This document shows positions 2,540-10,207 of a DNA stretch of 41,013 nt, piece by piece (the stretch's first letter is position 1; each line of letters begins with the position of its first letter). The stretch covers positions 1-41,013 of the IMG/VR virus record IMGVR_UViG_3300046737_000067; one strand, written 5' to 3'. Source of the stretch: a virus. Below the pieces are notes generated by a model. It worked only from the letters and a program-made list of their open reading frames with translations, ran no database searches and was not told the DNA's origin. The position numbers were made by a program, and so were the translations under genes.

Positions 2540-3175
2540 TTATAGATATCGAGCGGTGCCTTTTTGAAGGCGATACCGAGCCTGCATGCGCGTCAATCCG
2601 AGCGCATCGGCTGCTTCGCGAATAGTCGCAAACTGTTGACCATCAAATTCCACCGCTCGCGCGGCTGGACTCAACTTGCCAACATGAGAAGCGCGTAGGG
2701 CAGCACGATGCGCGTCCGTCGCATTAACACCCTTATTCCAAGCGACTCGGCCCTTGAGTTTTTCGACTCGCTTGGCTACCACATCGGGCGGTGTCGGAAT
2801 GCCTTTGTTCCATGCCGCATGACCTGGACGCCCGAGCGCTCGCGCGGCAATCTTAGCCCGCGTGCTCTCTGCGTGCTTGCAATCCGGCGTGCCCAATCCT
2901 CCACTGGCGCGGTTATACCCTGCTGGCATCATCGTGCCGAGTGCAGCAATCGTGGCGCGTTCCGCCGCGTAGAGTTCTGCGACGGTGCTAAATGTCGCCA
3001 ATATCGTCACCGTGAATGCGGGCCATCCATCCTCGCGAATGGCGTGCGAAAGCGGATGAGACAATCCTTGATTCGCTTGGCTCCGATGGTCGCCCATCCG
3101 CTGCGCCAGTGTGCGAGTCGTTGCGCCGACGTAAGACATGCCTGTTTTCGTGTTGGTCAATCGGTAGAGTGTCAT
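2540..3175 (-). CDS. GIY-YIG homing endonuclease (free-standing), with C-terminal DNA-binding repeats
   Basis: This 211-residue protein has an N-terminal GIY-YIG nuclease domain: LYRLTN at 3-8 and YVGATTR at 15-21 stand for the two signature strands, followed by the RMGDH helix with its basic residue and the AAERATIAALG glutamate helix. Downstream are repeated AWNKG-containing NUMOD-type segments and a C-terminal helix-turn-helix (ATIREAADALGLTRMQARYRL). The start at ATG 3175 is supported by a strong AGGAGG site five bases upstream. It sits just after the coat gene and is probably a selfish element cutting a nearby target in related phages. Confidence 0.88.
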   Translation of the reverse strand: MTLYRLTNTKTGMSYVGATTRTLAQRMGDHRSQANQGLSHPLSHAIREDGWPAFTVTILATFSTVAELYAAERATIAALGTMMPAGYNRASGGLGTPDCKHAESTRAKIAARALGRPGHAAWNKGIPTPPDVVAKRVEKLKGRVAWNKGVNATDAHRAALRASHVGKLSPAARAVEFDGQQFATIREAADALGLTRMQARYRLQKGTARYL

Positions 3176-3227: not shown

Positions 3228-4445
3228 CTACCCTGAAACTCGACACCCTAATTCCTGCCTCAATACTGCCGTTCCGTACAAAACGTCCAACCTTTGGATC
3301 CACTGGTCGGTGGTCGCCACATAGTCGCGAATCACGCGCAGCGACTTGCCCGACTTGCGCGACGCGGCGCGATACGCCTTGTCCGTCCCGCCCGGCAGCG
3401 GCAGGTCGACCATCGCGATCGTGCCGAAGTCCTTGTGCACGACCAGGTTCAGCGGCGTCTGTTTACCGGTGATGCTCGCGAAAGAGGCCGCCGGCGTGTC
3501 GTAGACGAAGATCGCCGTGCCGCTCGCCGGCAGGTTCGTGACGTTCTGCTGGTTGCTGCCAGGCCCGACAATCGCCGGCGCGATCGGGATCGTCATCGCC
3601 CCCGCGCTGTCGGTCGTTGTCGCGGTCACGACAAACTGCATCGGCTGGCCGGTGGACTGGAACGACTGCGGATTCACGCCGTTGACGGGCGTCGAGGTCG
3701 AGATGAAGGAGATGATGTCGCCGGCGTTCAGCGTCGTCGAGCTCCAGGACTGCGTGACGACGGTCGAGGCGCCGGAGGTCGGCACGCCGTTGGTCGTCGG
3801 CGTCCCACCGAGCGTCCCCACGGTCTGCACGAAGATGTTCTGGTCCATGTACCAGTCCATCCCCAGCGTCGAGCTCTTCGTCATCGAGCCGCTGTCATAC
3901 TGCGACGCGATTTCCTTCCCGTTGTGGAACAGCCCCTTGAGGTTGTCCATCAGCGTGAAGTCTGCGATCGGGTTGAGGAACGCGCAGCGCCCGTCGTCGT
4001 CCGGCGCGGCCATGTTGTCGAGTTTCACCTTCGCCAGGCCGTAGGTCGTGAGCGTCGTCGGCGTCGTGCCGGGCGTCCCGACCGAGTTGTTCAAGCCCTG
4101 CGCGAGGTTGCAGACGTCCTGGTCGATGAGGTTCGACAGGCGCACGATCTGCGGCTTGACGACCCGCGTGCGGTAGTTGTCGATGTCGAGCGTGAGGTTC
4201 TGTGAACTGACCTGCGTGTCGACGCCGCGCTGATAGGACAGCGTGAGCGGCACGAACGTCTCCGTGATCGCTTCAATCTGCGCGGCCTGCCCGAGCCGGC
4301 CGATGTAACGGGGCGGCTTGCGGATGCTCAGCGTCTGCCCCAGCACCGCGCCGCCAAACTGGAAGGCGTCCGAATATTCGGAATTGATGTTGATCAAGGC
4401 GGCGTCGGTGTTCTCAAGAACATCAAGCGCCTCAAACGTGATCAC
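3228..4445 (-). CDS. Major capsid (coat) protein, P22 coat-like
   Basis: This protein forms the icosahedral head shell. The pattern FGGAVLGQTLSIRKPPRYIGRLGQ, then VPLTLSYQRGVDTQVSS and LDIDNYRTRVVKPQIVRLSNLIDQDV, is typical of the P22 coat protein family in phages lacking tail sheaths. GTG 4445 gives 405 residues, but the in-frame codons just upstream read ANQFLTND. That matches the usual family N-terminus after Met, so the true protein probably begins about nine residues earlier, at 4472. The codon at the expected ATG there is ATC (4470-4472). It lies downstream of scaffold and portal, with a homing nuclease between scaffold and coat. See the finding on its start. Confidence 0.9.
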   Translation of the reverse strand: MITFEALDVLENTDAALININSEYSDAFQFGGAVLGQTLSIRKPPRYIGRLGQAAQIEAITETFVPLTLSYQRGVDTQVSSQNLTLDIDNYRTRVVKPQIVRLSNLIDQDVCNLAQGLNNSVGTPGTTPTTLTTYGLAKVKLDNMAAPDDDGRCAFLNPIADFTLMDNLKGLFHNGKEIASQYDSGSMTKSSTLGMDWYMDQNIFVQTVGTLGGTPTTNGVPTSGASTVVTQSWSSTTLNAGDIISFISTSTPVNGVNPQSFQSTGQPMQFVVTATTTDSAGAMTIPIAPAIVGPGSNQQNVTNLPASGTAIFVYDTPAASFASITGKQTPLNLVVHKDFGTIAMVDLPLPGGTDKAYRAASRKSGKSLRVIRDYVATTDQWIQRLDVLYGTAVLRQELGCRVSG

Positions 4446-4699
4446 ATCGTTGGTAAGGAATTGGTTCGCGATATAGCTACCCTAACGCTTTCGATTGCAC
4501 CACTGGTGCGCCCGATAACGATCCCTACCGGCTGATGAGGACCGTCGCGTTTCGAATAGCCCGATATGTCTGCGAGGCCGGACGGACGCAGACGACAGGG
4601 CCGAACTGTGATACCCGTGTTGCTCGTTACTGGCTTATGCGAGCAACACTAGAGTCGCGCACGTCATCATCGAGGCCAGATGGCGATGATGGCGCGCAA
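4446..4699 (-). promoter_or_regulatory. Structured untranslated leader of the coat gene
   Basis: A stretch of 254 bases lies between the GIY-YIG stop and the conventional coat start, in a genome where neighbours normally overlap. It holds three perfect inverted repeats: 10 bp at 4617-4626/4640-4649, 7 bp at 4568-4574/4587-4593, and 6 bp with a one-base centre at 4497-4509. The last 27 bases (4446-4472) look translated (IANQFLTND in frame). It may be a regulatory leader, an RNA-processing element or the remnant of an intron. No poly-T tract follows the stems on the minus strand, so simple intrinsic termination is unlikely. Confidence 0.55.
4617..4649 (-). repeat. Perfect 10-bp inverted repeat (hairpin) in the coat leader
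   Basis: GTGTTGCTCG at 4617-4626 pairs exactly with CGAGCAACAC at 4640-4649, leaving a 13-base loop. It lies about 50 bases after the GIY-YIG stop codon on the minus strand and has no U-run behind it. It could protect or separate transcripts, or be part of a larger RNA fold. Confidence 0.6.
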
Positions 4700-5305
4700 T
4701 TACGTCGCGTATCGTAAGGCGTAGGCGTGCCAGCGGTCAACCGTCCACGAGGTCCCGCGCTTCGCGGCCGCCATCTTCTCTTTTGTTTCCTGAGAGAATG
4801 TTTTTCCCCGTTGCGCGAGCGATGAGGCTGGACAGGGTTTCCGATTCGCCGCACCGATCTTCGCGCGATGCGCTGGCGACTTGGGGCGCCCCTTCTGGAA
4901 CGCCGACATCTTTCGCCGACTTTCCTCGCTTCGCTTGACGCGCTTGCCCATGTTCAACGCTTGCGCGGCTCGCATGTGCGCAATCGATTCAGGCGTGTGC
5001 TTGAACCCATCCGCAGGCCCAGAACCTGCGCGGCGGGCCGCATTGTAAAGCGCGTGATGCTCGTCAATGCGGCGCTGTTCAAGCGCAATCGCGTCAGATC
5101 GCGACAGGCATTGTTCCATCGTCCACGAAAACGCCGCGCAGCCGTATTTCTGCCAATCGGCCTGGAGTGCCACGTTGTCGTGTTCGCCGCGCCCGAGTGC
5201 GGACAGATGCTGTTGCCAGCGTTTCGCAACATTGAAACTGCTGCCGATGTATCGTCGTCCCGTGACGAGATTGAGAATCGTATAGACGCCCGCGTGCCGC
5301 GTCAT
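4700..5305 (-). CDS. GIY-YIG homing endonuclease between scaffold and coat genes
   Basis: This 201-residue protein has clear GIY-YIG signatures: GVYTILN at 6-12 and RRYIGSS at 17-23, the helix FNVAKRWQQHL with the catalytic-type arginine, and LEQRRIDEH carrying the metal-binding glutamate. The C-terminal half has SPAHRAKIGAANR and SQETKEKMAAAKRG, the lysine-rich NUMOD repeats that bind target DNA. The ATG overlaps the scaffold stop (ATGA), so it is translationally coupled to scaffold. It splits the usual scaffold-coat neighbourhood and is followed by the structured coat leader. It is not clearly paralogous to the other GIY-YIG gene beyond the nuclease fold. Confidence 0.88.
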   Translation of the reverse strand: MTRHAGVYTILNLVTGRRYIGSSFNVAKRWQQHLSALGRGEHDNVALQADWQKYGCAAFSWTMEQCLSRSDAIALEQRRIDEHHALYNAARRAGSGPADGFKHTPESIAHMRAAQALNMGKRVKRSEESRRKMSAFQKGRPKSPAHRAKIGAANRKPCPASSLAQRGKTFSQETKEKMAAAKRGTSWTVDRWHAYALRYAT

Positions 5306-6297
5306 CGCCGTCGCACCTTGACGCCACGCTCGGCCGCGCGTCGTTCTCGGTACCCACTCGCATCGAAGTCGTACGATTTGACGAGTTCAGCGGACGAAGG
5401 TGTAGTGGTTCGGCTGCCCGTGCCGACTGGTTGGAATGGGGCGGGCGGTGGCGGCGCGGGGTGGGCCGGGCTGTGGCCGTTCCCGTTCGGCACGAGCTTC
5501 GCGATTTCCGCCCCGAAGGCGATCGGGTCCGTCTGCTGTAAGCGCTTCGCGAGATCCCCATCCTTCAGGATGGCGTATTGAATGTGCGCCGACTGCGGGT
5601 GCTGGATGACATACGTCGCCCGCTGCATCGCTTCTTGCGGAGTCGGTCCTAACGGCACCAGCGCACCGGGCCCAGACGCAAGAAGGGTCTCGAAATCGGG
5701 ATAGAGCTGTTTCGCCGCCGCGCGGGACCGTTCGACCGTGCTGAAGAAGTCCTGGGCGGCCCGTTCGGCGGAGATCCGCGCGCCGATGCGGGTGTCGAGG
5801 TCGGAGGCGAGCCGTTGCTCGGTTTTCCAGTCCGCGAGGTCTTCGGTGAAGTCTTCGTAGGTCTGATAGGTCGTGCCGACGTGGTCGACGGACGGCTTCG
5901 GACGGGTAGGAGCAGGCGTCGCAGGTTGTGCCGGCGGCGCGGCCTGTGGCGCGGCCTGCTGCGGCGTCGGGGGCGGCGTCGGCTGTTGCGCCCGCGCTTC
6001 GAGCTCCGCGGCGCGTCGCTCAGCCGCCTCGGCCTTGGCGTTCGCCGCGTCGCGCTCTCGCGTCAGGTCCGCAAAGCGTTGCTGGCCGCGGGACCGCTTC
6101 GGCTCCGGCGACGCGGGCGACGCCCCCTCCGCAGGCTGGGCGACTGCGGTCCCAGACGGCGCCGCCTCGTCCGCCGGAGTCTCATACCGCTCGGTCAGCG
6201 CATCGAGCGCCTCCGGCGGCCCGCCGACACCCGTCAGGATGCGCCCGTCGATTTCGGTGCTGACCTGCGCGTCGGGGGCGGAAGTGGGCTCACCCAT
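5302..6297 (-). CDS. Scaffolding protein
   Basis: This 331-residue protein lies between portal and coat, the standard scaffold position in P22-like phages. It is charged and mostly helical: residues about 65-110 (RSRGQQRFADLTRERDAANAKAEAAERRAAELEAR) form a strong coiled coil, followed by a Pro/Ala/Gln-rich linker. A further helical region follows (DWKTEQRLASDLDTRIGARISAERAAQDFFSTVERS). The C-terminal end is short and basic (ERGVKVRRR), matching the basic helix-loop-helix that binds coat in P22 scaffold. It guides coat assembly and leaves before maturation. Start ATG 6297. Confidence 0.8.
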   Translation of the reverse strand: MGEPTSAPDAQVSTEIDGRILTGVGGPPEALDALTERYETPADEAAPSGTAVAQPAEGASPASPEPKRSRGQQRFADLTRERDAANAKAEAAERRAAELEARAQQPTPPPTPQQAAPQAAPPAQPATPAPTRPKPSVDHVGTTYQTYEDFTEDLADWKTEQRLASDLDTRIGARISAERAAQDFFSTVERSRAAAKQLYPDFETLLASGPGALVPLGPTPQEAMQRATYVIQHPQSAHIQYAILKDGDLAKRLQQTDPIAFGAEIAKLVPNGNGHSPAHPAPPPPAPFQPVGTGSRTTTPSSAELVKSYDFDASGYRERRAAERGVKVRRR

Positions 6298-9345: not shown

Positions 9346-9864
9346 TCAGTGGACACGTTCGTCTCGCTTGCGCTGCAAATACGCCAATCGCGCCGCACGG
9401 ATACGTGCGCGTTGTTCGCTGGTGCGGCGCTGGCCGGTATTCGCTGCGCGGATTTTCTCTTTCGCTTCTGCGCTATGCGTCCGTCCAGTGCTCGCGACGC
9501 GATTTTTCTCTTTGGACGCGTTTGTATTCGGGCGTCCGAGATGCCACTCGCGCAACTTCGCCCGCGTCTCGTCCGACACAGGATGGCCCATTGTTCGCTC
9601 ACGAAGCGCAATGATGGCGTCGCGCCGCTTTCCCTCGTCCGCCCAAAAGGCTTTTATGCCGGCGACCATTGACGCGATGTGGTCTTTACCAATCATGGAC
9701 GTGAGCATCTTCCACGCGTGAAAGTCGCGGGTATCGCCGTGCTGTTCCCAAAGACACTTGTGCAGGAACGCGTGCATCGCCACGTTCACGCGAATGACGT
9801 TGCGCGCGTCATACGTGCCGCCCATGTGCCCCGGCACGATGCGATGCTTGTGGAAGTGAATCAT
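9346..9864 (-). CDS. HNH homing endonuclease
   Basis: From ATG 9864 the protein starts MIHFHKHRIVPGHMGGTYDARN and continues VNVAMHAFLHKCLWEQHGD. This is the usual phage HNH arrangement with histidines around the metal (HKHRIVPGH ... N ... H). The C-terminal half has basic repeats (SDETRAKLREWHLGRP, SAEAKEKIRAANTG, SEQRARIRAARLA) that are NUMOD-type DNA-binding segments. A longer frame to 9960 exists, but the conserved start is internal. It interrupts a row of small overlapping genes, which supports insertion as a mobile gene. Confidence 0.85.
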   Translation of the reverse strand: MIHFHKHRIVPGHMGGTYDARNVIRVNVAMHAFLHKCLWEQHGDTRDFHAWKMLTSMIGKDHIASMVAGIKAFWADEGKRRDAIIALRERTMGHPVSDETRAKLREWHLGRPNTNASKEKNRVASTGRTHSAEAKEKIRAANTGQRRTSEQRARIRAARLAYLQRKRDERVH

Positions 9865-9922
9865 CAGAACCACACCACCGCGCACATCGCTCGCCACCGT
9901 GCCACCCAGCGATGCCAGCGCG

Positions 9923-10207
9923 TCATCGCGGCCCTCGATTCGCCATCCCGAGCGCCTCAAGCAGATTCATCTGCGCCTGCGACTGCTGTTGCCCGAGCAG
10001 TTGCTGCTGTAGATACTGCTGCCCGAACAGTTGCTGCCAGTCGCCCTGCAGCGCCTGCGCCTGCATCTGCTGCACCGCCGACGCTTCCCGCGCCCGCTCG
10101 CGCGCATAAATCTCGTCCAACGCGCGCTGATACTCGTCGAGCGTCGGATACCGCTTCCCGTCGCTCAATCGCTCGTCGAGCATCGCCATGAATTCGCCCG
10201 CGTGCAT
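9923..10207 (-). CDS. Gln-rich helical hypothetical protein (94 aa)
   Basis: The N-terminus (MHAGEFMAMLDERLSDGKRYPTLDEYQRALDEIYARER) looks like a folded helical segment. It is followed by a Gln/Leu-rich repeat region that may be disordered or a coiled coil. It starts at ATG 10207, touching the stop of the 51-residue upstream gene. Its role is unknown. Confidence 0.6.
   Translation of the reverse strand: MHAGEFMAMLDERLSDGKRYPTLDEYQRALDEIYARERAREASAVQQMQAQALQGDWQQLFGQQYLQQQLLGQQQSQAQMNLLEALGMANRGPR

Follow-up and report, generated by a model that had tools for sequence, protein, structure and literature searches.

The coat gene reads ATC where its family starts

The window, by which we mean the whole 41,013-nucleotide stretch of IMG/VR virus record IMGVR_UViG_3300046737_000067 that was analysed, carries a P22-type major coat gene on its minus strand. 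The features at this locus, in the direction of transcription, are as follows.

5302 to 6297, minus strand: head scaffolding protein gene, the upstream neighbour (PHROG 8865)
4700 to 5305, minus strand: free-standing GIY-YIG/NUMOD3 homing endonuclease gene between scaffold and coat (PF01541 plus NUMOD3)
4505 to 4698, minus strand: two tandem copies of a conserved RNA element (4505-4601 and 4607-4698)
4482 to 4484, minus strand: in-frame stop TAG bounding the coat frame upstream and overlapping the first G of the leader
4473 to 4482, minus strand: conserved leader GGGTAGCTAT, an invariant GGG plus the 7-nt TAGCTAT abutting the start codon
4470 to 4472, minus strand: ATC codon, the proposed coat start (from frame reading, relatives, PHROG 283 alignment and identity profile)
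4443 to 4445, minus strand: GTG, the first conventional in-frame start of the coat, not conserved in other ATC lineages
3228 to 4472, minus strand: P22-type major coat gene, 414 codons counted from the ATC plus stop (PHROG 283, E 4e-53)

The coat shares with P22-type coat proteins (PF11651, PHROG 283) a profile match over its whole length and the portal-scaffold-coat gene order. Those proteins have AUG at their start while the window coat has AUC instead. The minus-strand translation of this frame is R * G S Y I A N Q F L T N D V I T F E..., the 5' end running TAG (4484-4482), GGT AGC TAT, ATC (4472-4470), GCG AAC CAA TTC CTT ACC AAC GAT GTG, with no ATG, GTG or TTG between the in-frame TAG and the ATC. 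When the coat is begun at the ATC, residues 2-414 match positions 2-383 of the 385 in PHROG 283 (major head protein; 182.0 bits), and the ATC consequently corresponds to profile position 1, the place of the family's methionine. Begun at the GTG, the coat scores 176.6 bits against the same profile and E 1e-23 against PF11651. The first-pass annotation had described a coat lacking its expected ATG, with ATC in the methionine position and ANQFLTND encoded upstream of the GTG at 4445 as in P22-type coats; re-reading of the frame confirmed both points and the coordinates. It had also placed a stop three codons upstream of the ATC. The in-frame TAG is indeed there, but three sense codons separate it from the ATC, which makes it the fourth codon upstream. 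The sequence GGGTAGCTAT has a single exact copy in the entire window. The stop codon of the coat lies within AGGGTAGCT, whose nine bases recur in the start leader; this may be chance.

A conserved leader precedes ATC in related coat genes

A protein-similarity search of IMG/VR yielded 80 loci encoding relatives of the coat. At the column of the window ATC, relatives have ATG, GTG or TTG followed by GCN AAY (MANTFLTND...), and some conventional-start relatives begin a few codons upstream, for example ATGCCAGCC. ATC occupies the column in L003, L020, L024, L025/L026, L031, L058 and L059. The leader GGGTAGCTAT stands immediately before the ATC in the window and in all ATC coats (8/8 distinct ATC coats), and every coat among the 80 relatives without an ATG, GTG or TTG start has GGGTAGCTAT-ATC. 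Among seven ATC-coat lineages, mean pairwise identity is 29% at -40 to -12, 98% at -11 to +3 and 68% in the coding stretch +4 to +40. The region directly upstream of the coat is thus more conserved than the gene itself, indicating that it is under selection. Judged by these comparisons, the recurrence of ATC with its leader in other coat records is not chance, and a sequencing error as its cause is very unlikely because independent contigs have the same leader and ATC. In the coat tree ATC coats are scattered, requiring six changes, at least five of them forced by well-supported branches. Related coats may have gained the signal jointly by homing, in which case the lineages are not all independent.

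The RNA element consists of two hairpins whose loops, CCGGC and GCCGG, are complementary to each other. It lies upstream of nearly all these P22-type coats, in the scaffold-coat gap at some loci and within the 3'-terminal part of the scaffold gene at others (L011, L038, L067, L074). Covariation is strong: compensatory changes occupy 33 cells, whereas shuffling predicts 12 and slid controls never exceed 13. No Rfam family matched the element, and Rfam scans of the window at gathering and permissive thresholds gave nothing. Since it accompanies ATG and ATC coats alike, the element is not part of the start signal. In a further coat locus, L194 (MW202674, 1471-2986), the coat annotation consists of two CDS separated by a short ORF, which may be an insertion or intron.

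The leader precedes AUH codons in unrelated phage genes

Scanning with parts of the motif identified ORFs unrelated to the coat that lack a conventional start and lie directly after the leader. The leader, usually GGAGGGTAGCTAT, was found directly before AUC, AUU or AUA (AUH) starts in about 15 unrelated phage gene families, coat included:

L103: 745 aa ORF, ATT start
L187: ORF, ATT
L211, L240, L252, L254/L260: ORFs
L219: two sites, a major head protein (PHROG 9953) and a 132-aa ORF
L220: dUTPase
L232/L093/L100: PHROG 644
L236/L253: ORF, ATT
L238: major tail protein
L249/L262 (ATC) and L222/L234 (ATT): class-II glutamine amidotransferases
L256: replication initiation/initiator gene, ATA
L140/L190: distant P22-type coat, ATA

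The rare AUC start, one of the options raised for the coat in the first-pass annotation, is thereby supported and widened to a conserved leader with AUH in these families. The signal is rare: 2.9 million contigs contain a few tens of sites. The loci bearing it range from 38 to 70% G+C. In PHROG 283, 13807, 14519 and 2509, position 1 of the profile coincides with the AUH codon. At most non-coat sites GGAGG is followed by GUAGCUAU and then AUH, with a spacing of 8. The Shine-Dalgarno is weaker (only AGGG or CGGG) in the window and several coats, where the spacer is still invariant. Tallied by family, the start codons are approximately 12 ATC, 4 ATT, 2 ATA and 2 ATG. This third-base tally looks like isoleucine codon usage, a pattern not expected from plain near-cognate initiation with fMet. 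The second codon is mostly Ala, Ser, Cys or Pro. Two further families found in an NTG scan (L342, L341) have the leader GGAGGGTAGCTAT followed by a normal ATG. As the sites read, AUG is permitted after the leader and not favoured, ATG versions being fewer. A one-base leader variant, GGAGGGTATCTAT, precedes the ATC start of a major head protein (PHROG 14242) in L461 (1053-2306).

The association is lost when the leader is altered

For quantitative scans we used the pattern GGAGNGTAGCTATATH, counted distinct sites and scored as positive an ORF of at least 75 aa without ATG, GTG or TTG in the upstream frame; thresholds of 50 and 100 aa left the picture unchanged. The association disappeared when one leader base, the spacer or the first start letter was altered (Fisher p 1e-6 to 1e-8, values that are descriptive because the scans were designed successively as the motif emerged). 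With N=G in the leader, GGAGGGTAGCTATATH, 16 of 24 sites open such an ORF, compared to none of 30 for GGAG[ACT]GTAGCTATATH, where N is not G (p 3e-8). For GGAGGGTNNNTATATHGC, the spacer triplet AGC gave 10/12 and other triplets 1/37 (p 8e-8), the single positive being L461 with the triplet ATC. With C, G or T as first start letter (GGAGGGTAGCTAT[CGT]T[ACT]) the result was 0/22 (p 8e-7). In 84,980 prokaryotic species genomes the same motif gave 1/66, that one unconvincing (p 5e-11), and GTAGCTATATH sites without GG in the carrier genomes opened no ORF.

Two other sources of the motif were considered and rejected. Host infC as origin of the leader finds no convincing match among the 66 of the prokaryote scan, and sampled infC starts are without the spacer. 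A conserved peptide GSYI as the cause of conservation is contradicted by codons that are invariant in DNA across 38-70% G+C and by stops just upstream. Among INPHARED isolates, blastn with 31-32 nt queries, a weak test, gave marginal matches only and no clear cultured carrier; the exact 16-mer does occur in Geobacillus phage phiOH2, at a place that does not resemble a start.

Several genes point to initiation at the AUH codon

In class-II glutamine amidotransferases the nucleophile cysteine is residue 1 once methionine has been removed. The amidotransferase of L249 opens AUC-UGC-GGU, the AUC directly preceding the nucleophile cysteine, and has no conventional in-frame start. Its homologues L262 (AUC) and L222/L234 (AUU) have the same arrangement of AUH and catalytic cysteine, and in an alignment of GlmS (4amv) with L222, Met1 falls on the AUU-coded residue and Cys2 on its cysteine. 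As read from the frames, L249 is the clean case, since in L222 and L262 a TTG or similar codon precedes the AUH in frame at a distance of a few codons; L093 likewise has a conventional in-frame start a few codons before the AUH. In L003, L020, L103 and L238 none of the three upstream frames stays open beyond about 10 codons or contains a start; ribosomes initiating further upstream could not arrive in frame, so that initiation must be local. The window coat and the other sites of this kind combine AUU, AUC or AUA at the start position with the absence of any conventional start.

Taken together, we consider it probable that the coat starts at AUC by means of a conserved phage initiation signal tolerating any AUN codon. 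In this model the leader would be a translation-initiation signal made up of a Shine-Dalgarno segment and a fixed 8-nt spacer (GTAGCTAT), the spacer setting the AUN codon in the P site where its third base would be nearly irrelevant. The simplest account would be ordinary 30S initiation with fMet-tRNA on the AUN codon, enabled by contacts of the fixed spacer, perhaps with the 30S subunit, the initiator tRNA or a factor, and with the ribosome starting the coat at AUC. The fMet would then probably be removed, given the prevalence of Ala, Ser, Cys or Pro at codon 2. The spacer is not complementary to the anti-Shine-Dalgarno, and the motif could pair with E. coli 16S, 23S, 5S and tRNA-fMet only in G-U-rich stretches at chance level. 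No common RNA fold was found around the leader sites. The window contains no tRNA genes and 3 of 31 carrier records contain ordinary ones only, none specific to such a start. A bS21 gene, as bS21-dependent initiation would call for, was found in 0 of 18 carriers.

It is possible, and on present comparisons unlikely, that a 13-nt leader recruiting the ribosome sequence-specifically replaces the third-base codon-anticodon check or starts with a non-initiator tRNA (tRNA-Ile). If true, diverse phages would be starting single key genes by a bacterial initiation mode that has no earlier description. The narrower version, in which the leader recruits the ribosome such that tRNA-Ile or the tRNA of the next codon, often Ala, begins the protein in place of fMet-tRNA, appears very improbable. 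All AUH codons are isoleucine codons, their order C>U>A follows isoleucine usage and the leader seems not to favour AUG. Against this, the leader sites lack a structured element, the Shine-Dalgarno at most of them fits ordinary initiation and AUG versions of the leader exist (L342, L341). We know of no bacterial precedent for a protein start with a tRNA other than the initiator.

Initiation at the GTG at 4445 without the first nine residues, which the first-pass annotation had offered as a second option, is equally hard to credit. The GTG is the first conventional start codon in the coat frame. The other ATC coats, however, do not have a GTG at that place (GTC, ATC or ATT GTC), the nine residues that would be skipped (ANxFLTND) are conserved across coats, and the stretch from GGGTAGCTAT to the GTG offers no good Shine-Dalgarno at the right distance. 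A GTG start would also leave the conservation of the upstream 13 nt without a reason.

A homing endonuclease gene accompanies ATC in the coat family

The gene at 4700..5305 has the properties of a free-standing GIY-YIG gene: it contains the domain, is intergenic and does not lie in an intron. A GIY-YIG gene is located between scaffold and coat in six ATC coats (window, L003, L020, L024, L025, L031) and upstream of about 4 of about 40 distinct conventional-start coats (L012, L016 weakly, L056, L073). L058/L059 have ATC and leader about 45 nt past the scaffold stop and do not carry the gene, and a homing endonuclease gene of the window type was present at 0 of 20 non-coat leader sites within the up to 1.6 kb upstream that were examined. 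As the loci stand, the GIY-YIG gene is linked to ATC within the coat family and is not required for it. Two additional genes of this kind lie nearby. A second GIY-YIG gene is found just downstream of the coat (window 2540-3175, minus strand), and the ORF at 9346-9960 (minus strand) has a NUMOD3 motif and a homing endonuclease PHROG match, which makes three homing-type genes in the structural region.

The T4 seg homing endonucleases are free-standing GIY-YIG proteins whose genes spread with co-conversion of their flanks (PMC2988022). They share with the window an intergenic GIY-YIG gene beside a conserved gene; no change in a neighbour's start codon is reported for them in PMC2988022, whereas most carriers here have AUC as the coat start. 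By analogy, we infer that homing with co-conversion of flanks fits the association of ATC and GIY-YIG gene, the endonuclease gene standing outside the start mechanism. In the coat family the signal would probably have spread also in this way, together with the neighbouring gene.

Alternatively, GGGTAGCTATATC could mark where the GIY-YIG element homes or ends, and insertion could have damaged the coat start, with translation poor or from another start. The association within the coat family and the patchy spread on the coat tree are in keeping with this. The same sequence, however, precedes unrelated genes without a homing endonuclease gene, with AUU or AUA, and a damaged coat would not last in several lineages, and we regard this reading as highly improbable.

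Little can be said for a self-splicing intron or bypassed stretch containing the GIY-YIG gene that supplies an upstream ATG, a route the first-pass annotation had also proposed and which we rate as remote. The coat is preceded by the GIY-YIG gene and a non-coding stretch of about 220 nt, and the upstream gene is present in 6 ATC coats versus about 4 of about 40 distinct conventional-start coats. Yet the comparison it recommended, with relatives lacking the gene, turned out against it: L058/L059 retain leader and ATC with no room for an intron, so the gene is not needed. The 20 non-coat leader sites likewise have no window-type gene upstream, upstream frames are closed and the scaffold stop overlaps the ATG of the endonuclease gene, leaving no exon with ATG. 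Neither a group I/II core nor a match to Rfam at gathering or permissive thresholds, a common fold around the sites or an upstream ATG exon was found, and L058/L059 have no exon at all.

A programmed +1 frameshift of the prfB type, in which GGG-UAG-C preceded by an SD-like GGAGG, a sequence similar to a +1 site, fuses an upstream ORF to the coat frame, is excluded as a general account and scarcely credible otherwise: an upstream gene does end at the leader TAG in L024, L025, L031, L093 and L100, but in L003, L020, L103, L211, L232, L238, L249, L256 and L260, and hence at nine or more sites, the frame ending at the TAG is start-free and mostly open for only 2-21 codons.

Relation to known non-AUG starts

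The nearest known case to the proposed AUH initiation is that of infC-type AUU/AUA starts with an extended Shine-Dalgarno. The AUU, AUC or AUA starts of infC (IF3) and other bacterial AUH starts have in common with the phage sites an AUH codon and the absence of conventional starts; a strong upstream Shine-Dalgarno is shared by most non-coat sites, the window and several coats having only AGGG or CGGG. The infC-type cases are regulatory, rely on extended Shine-Dalgarno pairing and concern weakly expressed cellular genes. The phage leader differs in its conserved fixed spacer GTAGCTAT, which does not pair with the anti-Shine-Dalgarno, and in serving phage genes, those for major capsids among them. 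The leader spacer is also absent from the infC contexts that were sampled in other phyla. For AUU and AUA starts of S. aureus, where the Shine-Dalgarno is extended (cvfC1 AUU, ccpN AUA, citZ AUA), output is about 10-30% of that from AUG (PMC13009471), a level that sits oddly with use in a coat gene. Such starts are repressed by IF3, as is the GTC start of sigR in Streptomyces (PMC5472188). The latter is likewise a non-canonical bacterial start with a possible link to IF3, but sigR is a single cellular gene with GTC, and the phage leader was never seen before a GTC-started ORF in our scan (0/22). Searches of the open-access literature turned up no description of phage AUH starts with such a signal or of the motif. 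The combination of leader and AUH points to what, from the sequences compared, may be an undescribed way of starting protein synthesis.

Gene finders take only ATG, GTG and TTG as starts, and genes with the leader signal, including major capsid genes, are consequently truncated or missed. A short exact leader that would make AUC, AUU and AUA usable in phages of 38 to 70% G+C would be a new handle on start-codon choice by the 30S subunit, and on a possible bypass or exploitation of IF3 proofreading by phages.
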